From: Rhodothermales bacterium
GTDB lineage: Bacteria; Bacteroidota; Rhodothermia; Rhodothermales; JANQRZ01
NCBI GenBank assembly: GCA_028284265.1
Contig: JANQRZ010000024.1
Span: forward strand, 1-64,000
DNA: 64,000 nt
Direction of reading: 5' to 3'
The notes beneath the pieces were generated by a model. It made no database searches, was not told where the DNA came from, and saw nothing but the letters and a program-made list of their open reading frames with translations. Position 1 is the stretch's first letter. Each line of letters opens with the position of its first letter. Shown in pieces: positions 18,661 through 30,063 of this stretch. The position numbers were made by a program, and so were the translations under genes.

Positions 18661-19794
18661 CTACGACTCCGGCTCGGCGACGACCTCCAATCCTTCGTCG
18701 CTGGTGCGGAAGGTGTAGGCGATGGCTTCCATCTGCCGGAGAAACTCGCGCTTCTCAGCGGGCGTGTAGCGCGGCCCGAAGATCATCCCGTCGATGAGAT
18801 AGAACCGTCCCGTGTCCTCGTCGAAAAAGGCGTAGCTCACGAATGGGCCGCCCATGATGTCGCCGGTCAGCCGCCACGTCCCGCGCGTCTCAATCGCAAA
18901 GCGCCCGCCGAGGTCTACCGTGTCCGCTTCCACCGGGCGGCCGACGGGGTCCCGCTCCTCGATGGTGATGTAGCTCTCGGGAAACGTGCCCCGGATGAAC
19001 CGCTGGGTGAGGTCGTTGCGGAGGGTGCGGACGGCGTCGGGTGCGAGGCGGGTCAGGCGCGGGTCCTCCTCGTAGTAGACGAAAAAGTCCCGCCACGAGT
19101 CTTGCCCGGCGAAGCGCCGGTAGCGAATGAACTGCCCGCGCGTACCCTGATCATTGACGAACGTGGTGTCGATGGCGCGGACGTAGTCGTGCTGGATGCC
19201 GACCGCGAACCCGTGCTCGTCCAGCAATCCGGCTTCGATCTCGACTTGGCGCGCCTTGTCGAACATATCCTCTGTAAGACGCTCGCGGGCGAGGCGGTTG
19301 AAGGAGGCTCGGAGATCGTCACCTTCGTTGCGAATCTGTTGGGCGAGGGCCGAGTCGGTCGGGGCGGTGGCGTAGACGACGAGTTGGCCGCGCATCCAGA
19401 GGTCGGGCCGGGTGATGATGCCCCGCCCGCCGCGCTCCAGAGCCTGGACGCCTGCCGAGTCGAGGCGGACACGGATGAACTGCGCGGTCTCCGAGTCGTC
19501 GGTGTAGGGGGCGGCGAAGATGACACTGTGCTGGCGGCGCAGCCCGTCAAGCGAGAACTCGCTCAGGGATTCGAGGCGGAGGGTGAAGGCGGGCGTCGGC
19601 TGCGGGAACGTCAGCATCTCGCGTCCGACGGTCTCGCGTAGCGCGTCGCCGACCGGCCCGTTCCACGTCACCGAATCCGTCACTACCATGATCTCGCCTT
19701 GCTTGCCAACGGCGGGTGGTTTGTATTCGGTCACGGTGCTGCATCCCGCCACGAGCAGGACAGCGAAAGCGGCGAGAAAGCGGAGGGTTGTCAT
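18661..19794 (-). CDS. DUF4837 family lipoprotein
   Basis: [45 protein letters not shown] overlap with the trpA stop. Confidence 0.75.
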
Positions 19795-20615
19795 ACTGAA
19801 AGCGAGGTCGTTCCGTGTTTCAGTTCGTGGGTCCAGCGGCGGACGCGGTCGAGGCGCTCGGCGTCGGTCAGCGAGGCATCGTCCCACAGCGCCTCGGTGA
19901 GTCGGATGAGTGCGGTCCCGACGATGAAGCCGTCGGTGTGCTCGCTGAGTCGGGTGGCATCTTCGTGCGTCCGTATTCCAAACCCGACGAGCAGCGGATT
20001 GTTGTGGACGATACGTCGCACGCGGCTGAGATATGCAGAGATTCCATCGAGTCCGTCGAGGTTGCTCCCGGTCAACCCCGCGACGGAGACCGCGTAGACG
20101 AACGCGCTCGCCCGCTCGTCGATGAACCGCACCCGCTCGTCTGACGTGTTCGGTGCAACGAGGAAAACGAGACCGAGTCCAGCGTTGCGTGCTTCGTGCT
20201 CGATCACGTCAGCTTCCTCGGGCGGGAGGTCGGGGAGGATGAGACCATCTACGCCGGAAGACCGCGCATCCCGGCAGAAGTTGCCGACGCCGTAGCGGAG
20301 AATGGGGTTGACGTAGCCCATCAGCAAGAGCGGCGTCTCGCTCTCGGCGCGAAACTGCTCGGCGGTGCGGAAGGCATCGGGCATTGTGACACCATGCCGG
20401 AGCGCTCGCTCCGAGGCGTGCTGGATCGGTAGCCCTTCGGCGAGCGGGTCCGAGAACGGCATCCCCAACTCGATAAAGTCGGCCCCGGCCTCGTCCACGG
20501 CATGGAGGATCGGGAGCGTGGCGTCGGGGTGCGGAAAGCCGTTCGTGAGGAACAGCCCCATCGCCTTTTCGCCGCGCTCTTGGCACGCGGCGAGTGCTGA
20601 CTGGAGTCGGGTCAC
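19791..20615 (-). CDS. trpA: Tryptophan synthase alpha subunit
   Basis: [55 protein letters not shown]. Confidence 0.95.

Positions 20616-21048: not shown

Positions 21049-21052
<4 letters not shown>
20612..21052 (-). CDS. GNAT family N-acetyltransferase
   Basis: [51 protein letters not shown]. Confidence 0.85.
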
Positions 21053-22249
<1,197 letters not shown>

Positions 22250-22278
<29 letters not shown>

Positions 22279-22504: not shown

Positions 22505-23149
22505 TTACTCGGTCTCCACCGCGGTACGGTACGCCTCGAAGAAGTCGTAGAGCTTGTCGAAGTCTTTGACGCCCGGCTCGGACTCGACGGACGAGGAGAG
22601 GTCCACCGCGTAGGGCTGCATCGTGTCGATGGCCTCCTGCACGTTCTCGGCGTTGATGCCGCCGGCGAGGAAGAGCGGGAACTCGGCGGCGAGGTCGCGG
22701 GCGAGGCGCCAGTTGAAGCTCTCGCCGGTCCCGCCCCACAGGCTGGTCTTGTGCGTGTCGAGCAGGAAGAAGTCAGCGATACCCTGATACGGCAGCATGA
22801 GCGCTCGCAGTTGCTCGGACGACGCATCGTGCTGGACGCGGAACACTTTGATAGTCGGCACCTCGATGTCGGCCACGACCTCCGGCGGCTCGTGCCCGTG
22901 CAACTGCGCGAGGCCGAACCCAACCTCGGCACAGCGGGCGTTGATCGTCTCGGCGTCCTCATTCACGAACACACCGACCGCTTCGACGCCGTCCACCCAT
23001 TCGATGATCTCCTTTGCTACGTTCGGCTCGACGTAGCGTGGGCTGTCGGCGTACTGGATAAAGCCAAGGTAGTCGGCGCCGGCCCCGGCACAGTAGCGGG
23101 CGTCGGCGAGTTGGGTGATGCCACAGATTTTGACTTTCGTTCGGGTCAT
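22505..23149 (-). CDS. trpF: Phosphoribosylanthranilate isomerase
   Basis: MTRTKVKICGITQLADARYCAGAGADYLGFI, LAQLHGHEPPE, LLDTHK, FLAGGINAENV; the 538-aa ORF-track frame extends far upstream of the real start. Confidence 0.95.
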   Translation of the reverse strand: MTRTKVKICGITQLADARYCAGAGADYLGFIQYADSPRYVEPNVAKEIIEWVDGVEAVGVFVNEDAETINARCAEVGFGLAQLHGHEPPEVVADIEVPTIKVFRVQHDASSEQLRALMLPYQGIADFFLLDTHKTSLWGGTGESFNWRLARDLAAEFPLFLAGGINAENVQEAIDTMQPYAVDLSSSVESEPGVKDFDKLYDFFEAYRTAVETE

Positions 23150-23976
23150 ACGGGTTGGTCTTCGAGAAGGCGAGCGGTGTGGTGACGGAGGGTGGCGAGG
23201 GCTGCGCCCGGATCGGGGGCACGCATGAAGGTCTCGCCGATGAGCACGGCGTCGATCCCCCGGCGGCGGAGCAGGGCGAGGTCGGGGGCGGTCTTGAGGC
23301 CGCTCTCGGCGACGCGGACGATGTGCTTCGGCACGTCCGCGAGCACGCGCGGTGCACGCTCGACATTTACCTCGAACGTCCGAAGGTCGCGGTTGTTGAC
23401 GCCGAGCACCTGGACGCGGTCGAGGTCGATGGTTTCTAGCTCGGCCTCGTCGTGCAGTTCCACGAGGCAGGCCAAGCCGAGGTCGGTGGCGGCGTCGTGG
23501 AGGTCGTGCAACTCCGACGGTTCGAGTGCCGCGGCGATGAGTAGCACGGCGTCGGCTCCGTAGGCGCGGGCCTCGACGAGTTGGTATTCGTCGACGATAA
23601 AATCCTTCCGCAGGATCGGCAGGTCGGTCGCGGTGCGTACGGCGGCGAGGATGTCGAGCGAGCCTTGAAAGTGCAGTGGCTCGGTGAGGACCGAGAGCGC
23701 CGCCGCGCCGCCTCGCTCGTACTGCCCAGCTATCTCGACCGGATTGAAGTCCGACCGGATCACGCCCTGCGACGGTGACGCCTTTTTGATCTCGGTGATG
23801 ACAGCGAGCGCCTGCCCTGAGCCTGTCGAAGGGTCTTCCCGGCACACCGCCTCGGCGAAGGGCCGCGTTGGGGTCGAGAACGCTGGACGTGTTTCGAGGT
23901 CGGCGACGGATACCTCGGCCTTGCGCCGTGCCACGAGGGTGCGGGTATCGTCGAGGATGCGATCGAGGATCGTCAT
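23146..23976 (-). CDS. trpC: Indole-3-glycerol phosphate synthase
   Basis: MTILDRILDDTRTLVARRKAEV, AVITEIKKASPSQGVI, LSVLTEPLHFQGSLDIL, LPILRKDFIVDEYQ, LGVNNRDLRTFEV. Confidence 0.96.
   Translation of the reverse strand: MTILDRILDDTRTLVARRKAEVSVADLETRPAFSTPTRPFAEAVCREDPSTGSGQALAVITEIKKASPSQGVIRSDFNPVEIAGQYERGGAAALSVLTEPLHFQGSLDILAAVRTATDLPILRKDFIVDEYQLVEARAYGADAVLLIAAALEPSELHDLHDAATDLGLACLVELHDEAELETIDLDRVQVLGVNNRDLRTFEVNVERAPRVLADVPKHIVRVAESGLKTAPDLALLRRRGIDAVLIGETFMRAPDPGAALATLRHHTARLLEDQPV
23810..23834. repeat. REP-like repeat (CCTGAGCCTGTCGAAGGG core) inside trpC
   Basis: gcctgccctgagcctgtcgaagggtc; read in frame on the minus strand as DPSTGSGQA. Confidence 0.75.
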
Positions 23977-25013
23977 GCTGCCGGGGCGTAGGCACAGGAG
24001 GCTTCGACGAGCGCATCGAGCTTGGCGAGCGCTGCACCGGAGTCCACGCTCTCGCGTGCCGCGTCGAGGCACTCGGCGAGGCCGTCGAACCGACCGCTGG
24101 CGAGGAGGGCATAGGCAGCATTCAGCAGTACGATGTCGCGCGGCGGCCCGGCCTCGCCCCGCAGAATCGTGCGGACGATCTCGGCGTTTTCATCGGCGGT
24201 CCCGCCGTCGAGTTCGGAGGCGCGGACGCGGGCCAGCCCATAGTGCTCCGGCGTGACGATCTGCTGGAGCAGGGTCTGCGCGCCGAACGGGTCGAGTTGG
24301 CTACCTGTCTGATACACCGTCGTCGGACTCGTGGTGCTGAGTTCGTCGAGGCCATCGTGGGCGTAGATGCATACGACATGCTCACTGCCGAGCCGGACGA
24401 GGATTTGTGCCATCATCTTGGCCGTCTCCTCGCTGAACGCGCCGACGAGCTGGCGCTTGACCGCCGCCGGGTTGCAGAGCGGGCCGAGAATGTTGAAGAA
24501 CGTTCGCACGCCGAGCGCCCGGCGCACCGGCATGACGTGCTTCAGCGCCGGGTGGAAGAGTGGGGCGAAGAGGAAGGCAATGCCCGCTTCGCGGAGACAC
24601 AGCTCGACCCCCTCGGCTCGGAGCGACGTGTCCACGCCAAGCGCCGCGAGCACATCGGCACTTCCGGCGTTCGACGAGACCGCTCGGTTGCCGTGCTTGG
24701 CGACGATCACACCCGCCCCGGCAGCGACGAACGAGGCAGCGGTCGAGATGTTAAACGAACCGGCATGGTCGCCGCCCGTCCCGCACAGGTCGATGGCTCC
24801 GTCTGGCGCTTCGACCGGCACAGCGTACTCACGCATGACTTTCGTGAAGCCAGTTAGTTCATCGAGCGTTTCGCCTCGGCTGCGGAGACCGAGCAGGAGT
24901 GCGGCGATCTCCTCGGGCGCGGCTTCGCCCTGAAGGAGCAGGCGCATCACGGCTTCGGCTTGGTCTTGGGAAAGCGTCTCGCCTTCGGCGATGATCTGGA
25001 GGTAGGTTCGCAA
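23973..25013 (-). CDS. trpD: Anthranilate phosphoribosyltransferase
   Basis: DLCGTGGDHAGSFNISTAASFVAAGAGVIVAKHGNRAVSSNAGSADVLAALG. Confidence 0.97.
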   Translation of the reverse strand: MRTYLQIIAEGETLSQDQAEAVMRLLLQGEAAPEEIAALLLGLRSRGETLDELTGFTKVMREYAVPVEAPDGAIDLCGTGGDHAGSFNISTAASFVAAGAGVIVAKHGNRAVSSNAGSADVLAALGVDTSLRAEGVELCLREAGIAFLFAPLFHPALKHVMPVRRALGVRTFFNILGPLCNPAAVKRQLVGAFSEETAKMMAQILVRLGSEHVVCIYAHDGLDELSTTSPTTVYQTGSQLDPFGAQTLLQQIVTPEHYGLARVRASELDGGTADENAEIVRTILRGEAGPPRDIVLLNAAYALLASGRFDGLAECLDAARESVDSGAALAKLDALVEASCAYAPAA

Positions 25014-25024
25014 AACAGGTAGGG

Positions 25025-25612
25025 TCAGGTAGTGGTCGGAGTAGGGATGTGACGGAGCCAGTTGGCGATGAGAGCTGGCCCCTCGGTGGTCAGCACGCTC
25101 TCCGGGTGAAACTGAATGCCTTCGATGGGGAGCGCCCGGTGGCGGAGGCCCATGATGACGCCGTCCGCCGTCTCCGCCGAGACTTCCAGCACGTCCGGCA
25201 GTGTCTCGCGCTCGACAGCGAGCGAGTGGTAGCGCGTGGCGACGAAGTCCTGCGATACGCCCTCGAAAAGCGATTGTCCATCGTGGCGAATGGTGCTCGT
25301 CTTGCCGTGCATCAGCGTTGGCGCGTGGATGACTCGCCCGCCGAACACCTCGCCGATGGCCTGGTGTCCGAGGCAGACGCCGAGAATCGGTATGGTCTCG
25401 CCGAAGGTTCGGAGTACGGCCTCGGAGATGCCCGCCTCGCTAGGGCGACCGGGGCCGGGCGAGATCAGAATCCCGTCCGGCGCAAGCGCCCGAACCTCAT
25501 CGAGCGAGATCGAATCGTTACGCACTACCTCGACTGCGTCCGTGTGCGCCTGAACGAGGTGGACGAGATTGTACGTAAACGAGTCGTAGTTGTCTATGAC
25601 GAGAATCATCAA
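25025..25612 (-). CDS. trpG: Anthranilate synthase glutamine amidotransferase component (TrpG/PabA)
   Basis: MILVIDNYDSFTYNLVHL, ISPGPGRPSEAG, PILGVCLGHQAIGEVFGG, GIQFHPESVLT. Confidence 0.94.
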   Translation of the reverse strand: MMILVIDNYDSFTYNLVHLVQAHTDAVEVVRNDSISLDEVRALAPDGILISPGPGRPSEAGISEAVLRTFGETIPILGVCLGHQAIGEVFGGRVIHAPTLMHGKTSTIRHDGQSLFEGVSQDFVATRYHSLAVERETLPDVLEVSAETADGVIMGLRHRALPIEGIQFHPESVLTTEGPALIANWLRHIPTPTTT

Positions 25613-25690: not shown

Positions 25691-27025
25691 TCAGGAGTCC
25701 TCTTTATTCTTAGCCCTTCTCTCATTTAGGGCACTTGTATAGGGCCTGTTACGCTTGAGTCCTATTATTTTGCTTTGTCTACCCTTATTTATGTATGAAT
25801 CTTTTCTAATGGGAGATAGCTTACTGATAGGAATGGACTTCTTTTGAATACCAATCCTGGATATGCCAGTTACATCCGTAGGTGTTTGGTATATCACCCC
25901 AGGACTCTTTCGCTTCTCGAGTTCTTGGAATAGCTGACCGCTTCTACGCTTGAGTATTGAGTGCGCACGTTGGAGCATTTGGTGCCTTCTGGATAGCTGG
26001 GCGTACGAGTTCTTTAAAGTCACCAAACCGACCCGTTCTCGGACGGCTGCCATCACCTCGTTGGTGCGGGCGTTAGCGCGGGCGGCTCCGTCGCGGAGCA
26101 CATCGCGGACGAAGTCAGGGCGCTCGGCTAGGTTTTTCCGGCGCTCTCGGGCTTCGGCAAAGTAGTCCGTGATGAGGCCGAGCAGCTCTTTCTTGGCGTG
26201 CCCATAGCCGTACCCGCCCGCCCGGTAGGCCGCGGCAATCTCCTCGCGCTTCGCGTCGTCGGCGAAGAGTTTGATGAGGGCAAAGACGTTGTCGGCCTCA
26301 GGGTCTTTCGGCTCTTCGAGCGGTGTCGAGTCGGTGATGATGCCCATGACGGTTTTCTTGAGACGCTTGCCCTCATCGAAAATCTCGATGGTGTTGCCGT
26401 AGGACTTCGACATCTTGCGTCCGTCCACGCCGGGGACGACAGCGACATCGTCCAGAATCAGTGGTTCGGGGAGCGGGAAGAGCGGCTCCTCTTCCGGGCA
26501 GAACGCTTGGTTGAACCGCGCCGCCACGTCGCGGGTCATCTCGATGTGCTGCTTCTGGTCTTTCCCGACGGGCACGAGCAGGCCCGCGCCCTCCTTCCGA
26601 TAGATCAGGATGTCGGCGGCTTGGAGGATCGGGTACGTGAGCAGCCCAGCGTTGGCCGGGATGCCTTGCGCGACCTTGTCCTTGTACGACACGCCTTTCT
26701 CAAGATGGCTGACCGGTGTGAGGCAGAGGAGAATCCACGCCAACTCGGTCACGGCGGGCACGTCGCTCTGGAGGAAGAGCGCGGCCTCGTCCGGGTTGAA
26801 GCCGAGGGCGAGGTAGTCGAGCGCTACGTCGAGGCTGTAGCGCTCTAGCGCCTCAGCGTCGCGGACGGTCGTGAGCGCGTGGTAGTTGACGATGAAGTAG
26901 AACGCTTCCTGCTGCGTGTGCAGCCGGAGGTGCTGGCGGAGCGCGCCGAAGTAGTTGCCGATGTGGAGCGTCCCGGACGGCTGGATGCCGGAGACGACGG
27001 TCGCTGCGGTGTCGGTGGAAGTCAT
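25691..27025 (-). CDS. trpS: Tryptophanyl-tRNA synthetase with about 110-aa non-canonical C-terminal extension
   Basis: VVSGIQPSGTLHIGNYFGAL (HIGN), GRKMSKSYGN (KMSKS); canonical end near MAAVRERVGL then VTLKNSYAQLSRRHQ...ERRAKNKEDS; start MTSTDTAAT at 27025, not 27172. Confidence 0.93.
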   Translation of the reverse strand: MTSTDTAATVVSGIQPSGTLHIGNYFGALRQHLRLHTQQEAFYFIVNYHALTTVRDAEALERYSLDVALDYLALGFNPDEAALFLQSDVPAVTELAWILLCLTPVSHLEKGVSYKDKVAQGIPANAGLLTYPILQAADILIYRKEGAGLLVPVGKDQKQHIEMTRDVAARFNQAFCPEEEPLFPLPEPLILDDVAVVPGVDGRKMSKSYGNTIEIFDEGKRLKKTVMGIITDSTPLEEPKDPEADNVFALIKLFADDAKREEIAAAYRAGGYGYGHAKKELLGLITDYFAEARERRKNLAERPDFVRDVLRDGAARANARTNEVMAAVRERVGLVTLKNSYAQLSRRHQMLQRAHSILKRRSGQLFQELEKRKSPGVIYQTPTDVTGISRIGIQKKSIPISKLSPIRKDSYINKGRQSKIIGLKRNRPYTSALNERRAKNKEDS

Positions 27026-27073: not shown

Positions 27074-27104
27074 AAAAAAACCCGCTGCTCGGGTGAACAG
27101 CGGG
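27074..27104 (-). terminator. Intrinsic terminator of trp attenuator
   Basis: Minus strand CCCGCTGTTC-ACCC-GAGCAGCGGG-TTTTTTT: 10-bp stem (one G-U), 4-nt loop, U7; 48 nt upstream of trpS. Confidence 0.9.
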
Positions 27105-27126
27105 CGGCAATTCGGTAGCTCGGCGG

Positions 27127-27213
27127 TTATGCGGCAGCGCACGAGCGGCCCACTGTCTGGGGGGAGGTCCACCAGAGCCAGCTACCGTGGGCGGTATGGG
27201 CGTGTGTGTGCAT
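27127..27213 (-). promoter_or_regulatory. trpL: trp leader peptide ORF (28 aa, WLWW)
   Basis: Manual translation MHTHAHTAHGSWLWWTSPQTVGRSCAAA*: three Trp codons in four, ending 22 nt before the terminator stem. Confidence 0.87.
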
Positions 27214-27312
27214 CACGGCAGCAAGGATACGCCGATCTAGGCGTGGAAGCAACCGCATCTTTTCGAGCGAGGCCTCGAACAAGGGACCGAATCACTCACT
27301 CGACCCGTCTCC

Positions 27313-28629
27313 ATGTCCGGTTTGCTACGCCTCGCTCTCTTGCTTCTCGTTGCGGCCCCTGTCGCTGCACAGCCCGCTGCCGACCTCGTCCGCGTCCCCG
27401 CAGACATTGGCATCTGGCACAACATCAGTCTCAGTGATGCACTCATTCAGGACACGACACAGCAGGCGCTGAATCACCTCGCGCTTGCCCTTCCGCTTCA
27501 TCGGGCGGGTCAACTCGAAGGCGTAGCGGTAGGGGTGTTCGGGACGGCGTATGATCAGAAAGTCTACGGCGTGCAGGCCTCAGGCCTTGCCAACATCGCA
27601 GGCGAGGATGCGGTCGCCGTGCAGGTTGCGGGACTCGCCAACGTCGTCGGTGAGCAGATGACGGGTATTCAGGCGTCGGGCCTCGCCAACATCGCCGGAA
27701 GCCGGGTGGCCGGTGTGCAAGTAGCGGGGCTTGCCAACGTCGTCGGCGAAGAGGGGGGGGGCGTGCAGGCGGCGGGGCTGGCGAATATTGCTGGGGAGCA
27801 ATTTGCTGGTATTCAGGCGTCGGGCTTTGCGAACATCGCAGGTGAGGAGTTCCGCGGGATTCAGTCGTCTGGGTTCGCCAACATTGCGGGAGAGGATGCC
27901 GAGGGGGGGCAGTTCACGGGCTTTGCCAACATCGTGGGGGAGGATATGCTCGGTGTGCAGGCCGCTGGACTGGCGAACATCACCGGGGCGGACCTGCTCG
28001 GCCTACAGGCGTCGTTGTTCAACGTGGTCGGCGAGACGATGCGTGGGGCACAGGTCGGGCTTGTCAACGTGGCGGCGGAGTCCGCAGGGTTACAGATCGG
28101 CCTCGTCAACGCCGCAGGCGAGCAGCACGGAATCCCCATCGGTCTGTACTCGCGGACTGGCGGTGTGCCTGTTCTCCTCGACGCGTGGAGCGATGAGACG
28201 GCCGCGCTGCACATCGGCGTGCGCTCCGGTAGTGCGGTCGTGTCGAACTACGCCGGGATCAGCACGCGGCCTTTCGCCGACGAGGCGCTGCGGTGGGGTG
28301 TATTCGCTGGACTCGGCGTCGAGCAGCCTATCAACCGGCGCACGGCATGGGGGATCGACGCCTTCGCACACGGTCTTTTTGCCGAAGACCTCGGCGGGAG
28401 CGCTAGCTTGCTGGTGCGGCTTCGTGCCATCGTCACGCACGAACTTGGCGGGCGGACGGCTTTGTTCGGCGGGCCTTCCCTCAGCCTGTTCCTATCCGAG
28501 GAAAACGACGGAGAGAGCCTCGCCCCGTTTTCGATCTACGAAACCGCCAACGCCGACGGCACCGGCGGCTTCGTTCGCATATGGCCCGGCCTCGAAGCCG
28601 GACTCCGCATTCAGATTACCCGCAACTAG
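27313..28629 (+). CDS. Secreted/surface protein with tandem 16-aa GVQASGLANIAGEx repeats and C-terminal barrel-like region
   Basis: Signal peptide MSGLLRLALLLLVAAPVAAQ; about 12 consecutive repeats, resembling the LA_2272-type surface repeat. Confidence 0.8.
   Translation: MSGLLRLALLLLVAAPVAAQPAADLVRVPADIGIWHNISLSDALIQDTTQQALNHLALALPLHRAGQLEGVAVGVFGTAYDQKVYGVQASGLANIAGEDAVAVQVAGLANVVGEQMTGIQASGLANIAGSRVAGVQVAGLANVVGEEGGGVQAAGLANIAGEQFAGIQASGFANIAGEEFRGIQSSGFANIAGEDAEGGQFTGFANIVGEDMLGVQAAGLANITGADLLGLQASLFNVVGETMRGAQVGLVNVAAESAGLQIGLVNAAGEQHGIPIGLYSRTGGVPVLLDAWSDETAALHIGVRSGSAVVSNYAGISTRPFADEALRWGVFAGLGVEQPINRRTAWGIDAFAHGLFAEDLGGSASLLVRLRAIVTHELGGRTALFGGPSLSLFLSEENDGESLAPFSIYETANADGTGGFVRIWPGLEAGLRIQITRN
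27568..28152 (+). repeat. Tandem 16-codon coding repeat array
   Basis: GVQASGLANIAGEDAV / AVQVAGLANVVGEQMT / GIQASGLANIAGSRVA / ... decaying to 14-15 codons at the end. Confidence 0.85.
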
Positions 28630-29108
28630 GCCGTCGCCGGACGACGCATCCGCGTTACGAAAGGGTGGAGCGCGCCGAGCCGCGCTTCGCTGCCCTTGAT
28701 GTTGTTCTCCAAGATGGCCGTCGAGCGGAGTTGCTGGTGCGGCAGGTCGAGCGCGTCCTGAATGGCTTCGCGATACGCCCGCTCGATGTCATCCAACCGG
28801 TGGACCATTTCGGCATCAGTCCCGCCGAGGTCAAGGTCTGTATCGAGATCGACGCCGTTCGGGGGGATGCCTCCAAGCGAGAGCACGGTTTCCTTCAGCT
28901 TTGCCAACTCGGTTCGGGTGCGGTTCATCCCCTCGTTGAGTGAGGCGGCGAGGTCACGGTCAGCGAAGCGCCGGAGGGCGGCATCGTAGGCGAGGATCAG
29001 CTTGCCGTGTTGCTCCACGAGGGGGTTCATCGCGGCCACCGACTCGGCGCGGGTCATCGAGTAGCCAGCGCCGCCCCGGTTCAGGATCGGCTTGAGGACG
29101 TTGTACAT
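28626..29108 (-). CDS. Helical (ferritin-like?) hypothetical protein
   Basis: MYNVLKPILNRGGAGYSMTRAESVAAMNPLVEQHGKLILAYDAALRRFADRD...; start at 29108 preferred. Confidence 0.6.
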   Translation of the reverse strand: MYNVLKPILNRGGAGYSMTRAESVAAMNPLVEQHGKLILAYDAALRRFADRDLAASLNEGMNRTRTELAKLKETVLSLGGIPPNGVDLDTDLDLGGTDAEMVHRLDDIERAYREAIQDALDLPHQQLRSTAILENNIKGSEARLGALHPFVTRMRRPATA

Positions 29109-29136
29109 GGCAGGGCGGGTTTGGCGGGAGAGAGCG

Positions 29137-30063
29137 TTACGAGTCGGCGTTAGCCTTGTCGATGGCGGCCTCGAAGTCGGCGAGCGGCTTGGCCCCATTC
29201 AGGAACTCACCGTTGACGAAGAAGCCCGGCGTGCCACTGACGCCCATCTCTTGGGCAAGCGACATGGAAGCGTTGAGCGCGGCGACCGCTCCTGCGTTCG
29301 CCGATTCATCGGTCCCGTCGGTGCAGGCGAGCCATGAGTCCATATCGAGGTTGGAGTTGGCGAGGTAGCCCTGGCTTTGCTCGATGACGTTGCTCGTGTT
29401 GAGGGAGCGCTGGTTGGCGAAGTAGCCATCGTGGAGCATCCAGAACGCCTCGTCGTCCTGCTGGGCGGCGCAGAGCGCGGCAATCGAGGCCGGGCGAGCC
29501 CACGGGTGGTTCGGGAGGGGGTACTGCATGTAAACGAACTTGACATCGTCGCCACGCTTCTCGATCAACTCTTCCATCGTCGTGGCCGCGCGTGCGCAGT
29601 AGGGACACTGGAAATCTGAGAACTCGACCACGGTGACGGGCGCATCGGGGTTGCCGCGCACGGGAAGCCCCGCGATGGCTTCGTTGAGGGTGGCGGCCCG
29701 CTCGGCCATTTCCTGTCGTGCTGCCGCTTCGCGCTCGGCGAGGGCTTCGGCGAGACCGGCCTCGTCCCGGCTGACGTCCACCGGATCAGCAGCGATGAGG
29801 TAGAGCTTCGTGTTGTCGTCCGTGACGAGGAAGCGTTGCGTCTGCTGGCCGTTGACGATGAATGAGCCTTCCATTAGCCCGTCCACGCCTGTCGGTGAGA
29901 ACTCGCCCATCTCCACTTGGTACTGATCGAGCTGTGGGAACTCGAAGCGGAGGTTCGTGAGGATTTGAGATTTCCGGTCTTCATCCGGCGTCGCCGACTG
30001 GCCGCAGGCGGGGCCGGTGAAGAGGACGAAAGAGAGGAGAGGGAGGACAAACAGGCGCTTCAT
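29137..30063 (-). CDS. DsbA/DSBA-like thioredoxin domain lipoprotein/secreted protein
   Basis: VTVVEFSDFQCPYCARAATTMEELI, GVSGTPGFFVNGEFLNGAKPL; signal MKRLFVLPLLSFVLFTGPACG. Confidence 0.92.
   Translation of the reverse strand: MKRLFVLPLLSFVLFTGPACGQSATPDEDRKSQILTNLRFEFPQLDQYQVEMGEFSPTGVDGLMEGSFIVNGQQTQRFLVTDDNTKLYLIAADPVDVSRDEAGLAEALAEREAAARQEMAERAATLNEAIAGLPVRGNPDAPVTVVEFSDFQCPYCARAATTMEELIEKRGDDVKFVYMQYPLPNHPWARPASIAALCAAQQDDEAFWMLHDGYFANQRSLNTSNVIEQSQGYLANSNLDMDSWLACTDGTDESANAGAVAALNASMSLAQEMGVSGTPGFFVNGEFLNGAKPLADFEAAIDKANADS

Follow-up and report, generated by a model that had tools for sequence, protein, structure and literature searches.

Ribosome-stalling attenuation is the classical design known from enteric trp operons, and most documented cases of leader-peptide attenuation at trp genes come from Proteobacteria and Actinobacteria. 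In the first 64,000 nt of contig JANQRZ010000024.1 of a Rhodothermales bacterium (the whole stretch of DNA analysed, hereafter the window), a short ORF rich in Trp codons and a terminator precede a trp operon that is headed by trpS. Here we ask whether these parts form an attenuator and how it came to stand in front of the gene for tryptophan--tRNA ligase. From the sequence comparisons reported below, we consider it very probable that the element is a classical ribosome-mediated trp transcription attenuator, descended from a trpE leader that is spread across the class, presumably Rhodothermia (as indicated by the first-pass annotation of this DNA and by a Balneolaceae contig among the relatives).

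Leader and operon

The window belongs to a genome of 3.69 Mb that is 97.9% complete; statements about this genome are the outcome of covariance-model and family searches. The features of the locus are listed in Table 1. The first-pass annotation had placed a leader ORF of 28 residues on the minus strand, and its sequences and coordinates are all correct, although an in-frame GTG at 27216 may be the true start, as in the related genome G002 of the same family. The three Trp codons occupy 27180-27178, 27174-27172 and 27171-27169. A short ORF this rich in W (three TGG within four codons) with a terminator behind it occurs exactly once in the window and was absent from 150 sequences of 64 kb simulated by a Markov-1 model that keeps the dinucleotide make-up. 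The chief support for the element comes from its conservation among relatives.

Table 1. Coordinates of leader and operon features in the window.
Feature	Position	Strand	Evidence or remark
-35-like element TTGCTT, leader promoter	27247-27252	-	block kept in congener G001
-10-like element TATCCT (family consensus TATCTT)	27224-27229	-	putative promoter
trpL leader ORF, MHTHAHTAHGSWLWWTSPQTVGRSCAAA*	27127-27213	-	ORF and homologous leaders in relatives
Candidate region 1, GCCCAC, complement of GTGGGC 27153-27148 (protector 1:2)	27187-27192	-	
Control codons TGG CTC TGG TGG (WLWW)	27169-27180	-	RLWW in G001, WLWW in G002
Region 2, ACAGTGGGC, antiterminator 5' strand	27148-27156	-	begins 12 nt past last Trp codon
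Region 3, GCCCGCTGTTC, terminator 5' arm and antiterminator 3' strand	27095-27105	-	
Region 4, GAGCAGCGGG(T), terminator 3' arm and T7 run	27074-27090	-	
trpS, tryptophan--tRNA ligase, first structural gene here	25691-27025	-	TIGR00233 (273 bits), PF00579
trpG	25025-25612	-	TIGR00566
trpD	23973-25013	-	TIGR01245
trpC (start approximate)	23146-23976	-	NF001377
trpF	22505-23149	-	NF002298 family match
trpB	21049-22278	-	TIGR00263
trpA	19791-20615	-	TIGR00262

A promoter-like pattern precedes the ORF and recurs across 31 leaders as TTGC, a gap of 17-18 nt, and TATCTT. The TTG of the -35-like element is kept in about 28 of these leaders, 17-18 nt 5' of the -10-like element, the first two positions of the latter are TA in 30 of the 31, and its distance to the leader start codon is 6-10 nt in most loci. 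If transcription starts about 7 nt after the -10-like element, the leader ORF is leaderless or nearly so; from this spacing, trpL is probably a nearly leaderless ORF.

By comparison with relatives and TIGR00233, trpS starts at ATG 27025, 55 nt from the end of the terminator stem. As had been pointed out earlier, the longest trpS ORF, from GTG 27172, overruns the leader, the frame of which is different. On the same strand trpS is followed by trpG, trpD, trpC, trpF, an 81-aa ORF, trpB, a GNAT protein gene and trpA. The last 110 residues of the trpS ORF (25691-26037) extend past the TrpS profile and have 44% GC, compared with 64% elsewhere in the ORF; TrpS of the congener G001 has a short tail only, and this part of the trpS-trpG junction is possibly an inserted or foreign stretch.

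Competing RNA structures

The terminator described in the first-pass annotation is present as an 11-bp stem, GCCCGCTGTTC/ACCC/GAGCAGCGGGT, with T7 at 27080-27074, and so is the antiterminator, in which ACAGTGGGC (27156-27148) and GCCCGCTGT (27105-27097) form 9 bp, one of them G-U. Since both structures use region 3, they are mutually exclusive. In the folding check that had been suggested, the free leader reached -61.3 kcal/mol (z = -2.5), a better fold than chance would give. With only the RNA beyond 10 nt after the last Trp codon free to pair, and the polymerase just past region 3, the antiterminator has -26.9 kcal/mol. At equilibrium, with a stalled ribosome and region 4 made, the terminator (-36.1 kcal/mol) is slightly more stable than the antiterminator (-33.5 kcal/mol), so that the switch must act during transcription, in agreement with the classical scheme. 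With a ribosome at the stop codon, the remaining downstream RNA can form only the terminator. Region 2 lies inside the ORF and ends 18 nt before the stop codon, and a ribosome waiting at the stop therefore covers little of it; this and the equilibrium energies are points against the switch.

Two further pairings had weaker outcomes. The complementarity of CGGTAGCT and AGCTACCG noted earlier is present in the window and is not conserved, with 3 of 8 positions broken in G001; this stem was dropped as a conserved part because only 5 of 8 positions pair in that congener. Candidate region 1 (GCCCAC) is kept in G001 and reads GCCCAT in G002; its pairing with GTGGGC across the Trp codons is found in the genus, and its family-wide signal is weak (142/5000 permutations).

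Judging from this anatomy and from the established enteric model, the transcription start, the stalling of the ribosome, the termination step and the response to tryptophan would be arranged as follows. RNA polymerase would start just 5' of the leader start codon, and trpL, nearly leaderless, would be entered by a ribosome. A shortage of charged tRNA-Trp would stall this ribosome at the Trp codons with its leading edge just before region 2, which would pair with region 3 once this emerges; the terminator would be blocked and trpS-trpG-trpD-trpC-trpF-trpB-trpA transcribed. When charged tRNA-Trp is plentiful, the ribosome would cross region 2 to the stop codon, region 3 would pair with region 4, and transcription would stop at the U run with the release of an RNA about 140 nt long. 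Because the operon also carries trpS, tryptophan supply and tRNA charging would share one sensor.

Covariation across families

Pairing of region 2 with the terminator was examined by permutation in 36 leaders from 13 families, using the 22 nt that start 6 nt after the last Trp codon and the terminator 5' arm. True partners gave a mean duplex energy of -19.9 kcal/mol and partners swapped between families one of -15.7 kcal/mol, and none of 5000 permutations was as good as the observed value. Control windows gave no signal, with z = 1.8 for the 22 nt before the Trp codons, 0.2 for 28-50 nt after them, and 0.8 after the stop codon. In a 23-row alignment of the three strands (A4), the terminator has 96.6% standard pairs and 22 double changes (7.8 +/- 2.8 in shuffled data), and the antiterminator 87.4% standard pairs and 21 double changes (6.2 +/- 3.0 shuffled); the registers of A4 were chosen by complementarity and its counts lean towards structure, a fault of which the permutation test is free. 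Pairs were counted on A4 because MAFFT misplaces region 2 of one family (f14) in alignment A3.

Region 2 begins exactly 12 nt beyond the last Trp codon in 15 of 33 leaders, representing seven families, and 13 nt beyond it in f14; overall, 18 of the 33 have a spacing of 12-13 nt. This spacing would fit the leading edge of a stalled ribosome that leaves region 2 free. In most families a CAGTGGG core within the leaders falls in frame 1 (xVG), in others in frame 2 (DSG, SSG), which argues that the RNA and not the peptide is selected. By these comparisons it is base pairing rather than peptide sequence that is conserved, while HTAH-like and AVG-like stretches of the leader peptide are common to some families. 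While the frame shifts, the antiterminator preserves its base pairs and, in many families, the spacing to the Trp codons, and the leaders thereby offer a natural test of stalled-ribosome geometry. Leader ORF, terminator, antiterminator, conservation, covariation and spacing are all read from the aligned sequences themselves. The lack of conservation that had been named as a possible refutation did not occur: Trp codons are kept and both stems covary, and on these grounds the ribosome-stalling interpretation of the first-pass annotation gains support.

Distribution in relatives

TrpS was matched in 56 of 60 relatives, and the usual arrangement of the operon within the order is trpE-(x)-trpS-trpG-trpD-trpC-trpF-trpB-trpA. 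A leader with WW, WWW or occasionally W.W, together with a terminator, stands before trpE at 34 of the 44 loci of the order that have enough upstream sequence; it is absent upstream of trpE at the other 10, mostly in two families (f15 and f5), which is a point against the reading. Examples are G002, with a GTG-started VTRLHAHTAHSWLWWISPRTVGCPCAVA before trpE, and at least two named contigs, JAFIFA010000024.1 (a Balneolaceae MAG, ...HTNWWW...) and CALFHN010000091.1. Directly before trpS, the leader was found in both genomes of the window's genus (that of the window and G001), and a scan directly upstream of trpS found none in the order outside this genus, because in most of these genomes trpE precedes trpS and the leader sits upstream of trpE.

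A covariance model (R1) was built from 18 leaders, those of the window and G001 among them. In the window's genome its sole full-length strong match is the known site (82.3 bits, E = 1.5e-17). Of 114 genomes of the order, 53 have an R1 match at E <= 1e-4 and 63 at E <= 0.01, some of the latter matches being terminators behind tRNA genes; several weak matches with E of about 1e-3 were rejected as terminators after tRNA genes or other non-leaders. Among 297 genomes of the phylum, 35 were matched, comprising 12 of the order, 22 of other families of the class, the matches of which lie outside the training set, and one elsewhere. This lone match in another class (L291) is false, with neither trpE nor a Trp leader at the site.

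All 10 inspected loci from other families of the class (38-63% GC) carry a leader with WW or WWW plus a terminator ahead of trpE-trpS-trpG, nearly all with CAGTGGG between Trp codons and terminator, and we conclude that both the attenuator and the trpE-trpS operon are class-wide. One orthologous attenuator can be followed over 13 families of the order and into other families of the class, at GC contents of 38-65%. The covariance model could serve annotation pipelines, which miss the leader and, in the window, overrun it with a longest-ORF call of trpS.

Loss of trpE from the operon

Judged by this distribution, the attenuator did not arise before trpS; it is a class-wide leader of the trp operon, normally located before trpE, that ended up there. 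Gene orders indicate how. G002 has, one after another, a DsbA-like gene, an ORF of 200 aa, a repeat protein gene on the other strand, the leader, trpE, an ORF of 252 aa (X) and trpS; the series in G001 is DsbA-like gene, X, leader and trpS; and in the window it is DsbA-like gene, X (28626-29198), repeat protein (27313-28629, other strand), leader and trpS. Comparison of these orders places X, which lies between trpE and trpS in G002, upstream of the leader in the genus, with trpE gone from the locus. In the genus trpE has left the locus and the leader now stands directly before trpS, the operon of the window being trpS-headed because trpE is gone from it.

Two neighbours of the leader deserve mention. 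The divergent gene at 27313-28629 (plus strand) encodes a repeat protein with GLANIAGE/GVQASG units and without Pfam match, which is also present in G002 and absent at the corresponding place in G001. Beyond it, upstream of the leader, protein X (28626-29198, minus strand) is conserved, has 190 aa in the window and is likewise without Pfam match.

The first-pass annotation had put the whole pathway under control of the leader, which goes too far: trpE is missing from the operon, and the TrpE N-terminal family has no match in the window's genome (97.9% complete), where the only chorismate-binding proteins are one PabB-like and one MenF-like. G001 carries a distant aroF-trpE-trpG cassette elsewhere (G001:C8; L190:10521-13707), the TrpE of which is only 34% identical to that of the order. 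In the window's genome both flanks of this cassette lie together on one contig and the cassette is absent (G000:C23:206602-207416). We tentatively suggest, as a possibility somewhat short of an even chance, that the attenuator of this genus outlived its enzyme, in a species without any TrpE, where the sensor would mainly set TrpS and the part of the pathway fed by outside anthranilate or indole, or by an unrecognised source of anthranilate. If the species is truly without TrpE, a sensor of charged tRNA-Trp would mainly set the level of tryptophanyl-tRNA synthetase.

The same loss raises the question of whether the leader is a degenerate relic, with trpS driven from a promoter downstream of the terminator. 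The absence of trpE from the operon and of TrpE from the genome would agree with this, as would the 55 nt available between stem end and trpS start and the first Trp codon, which is CGG in G001. The two genomes of the genus, however, are nearly identical from about 27281 to 27015, whereas conservation drops sharply further upstream, and each of them retains intact the promoter, the WW codons, region 2, the two arms of the terminator and the T run. A promoter-like site was looked for between the terminator and trpS and none was found, and we regard a relic as improbable. The remaining reading, a translated short ORF beside an ordinary terminator with no switch (by chance, or as a small protein that matters as a peptide), could appeal to the shared HTAH-like and AVG-like stretches and can practically be dismissed, given that no long minus-strand ORF of the window ends just upstream for a terminator to serve (the neighbour at 27313-28629 being divergent), that antiterminator covariation and the frame change of CAGTGGG point to selection on RNA pairing, and that 0/150 simulations yield such a combination.

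Relation to known systems

A functioning attenuator of this kind, which we prefer, resembles enteric trpL in its tandem Trp codons within a short ORF, in the competition of antiterminator and terminator for a shared strand, and in its position before trp genes. It differs in that no sequence or covariance similarity was detected, the ORF is probably nearly leaderless, region 2 lies inside the ORF and not after its stop, trpS is in the operon, and trpE is not. Searches of the window leader against Rfam gave no match to Trp_leader (RF00513), even at E up to 5, and none to the T-box. In function the leader would resemble RF00513, and it is not a detectable member of that family.

Streptomyces offers a precedent for trpS preceded by a Trp leader (PMC1262725, PMC8079986), and leaderless Trp leaders are known from Sinorhizobium meliloti (PMC7298713) and Streptomyces lividans (PMC8079986). 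The trpL1 (trpE) and trpL2 (trpS) leaders of Streptomyces are comparable in being leaderless, in belonging to a GC-rich genome and in that one of them precedes trpS (PMC8079986, PMC1262725). In S. lividans trpE and trpS are monocistronic, each with its own leader, and trpL2 has a single Trp codon, whereas the window has one WLWW leader heading trpS plus trpGDCFBA. The leaderless trpL of S. meliloti attenuates trpE(G); it controls trpE(G) only, and its RNA and peptide have trans-acting roles there (PMC7298713).

A survey of 2010 knew leader-peptide systems only from Proteobacteria and Actinobacteria and added hisS of Firmicutes (PMC2965389), and a 2013 Rfam survey considered that the motifs may have originated in gamma-proteobacteria (PMC3766115). 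From the same FCB group as the window, a 2021 Flavobacterium study gives clues for leader-peptide attenuation, with leader candidates of amino-acid operons drawn from the transcriptome of Flavobacterium psychrophilum; no trp case and no covariation were found there (PMC9723704). No earlier paper on a trp attenuator in this class was found in the open-access literature. The kind of element is already known, and this member and its class-wide spread appear to be new.

Other aromatic leaders

Leaders of a second kind were encountered before a fused chorismate mutase-prephenate dehydratase-DAHP synthase gene. The window genome's own copy of this fusion (L261) is without such a leader upstream. In another family, locus L262 (genome G012) carries, about 180-90 nt upstream of the match, a Phe/Tyr run (...RFSFYFYFYFGYRGSGTGGPGAATG*), with a strong terminator between it and the same fusion gene. 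In family f12 (L256, L257, L258, about 155 nt upstream of the gene, and L237:1270-1410), leader and terminator stand directly before the fusion gene, and the short ORFs read ...PYSGYWFMR..., ...FYYGYWFMR... and ...SYYGYWFMR..., with Tyr, Trp and Phe codons in a row. After these codons follows GGCGGGC, complementary to the terminator arm GCCCGCC, and the f12 leader could sense all three aromatic amino acids at the pathway entry.
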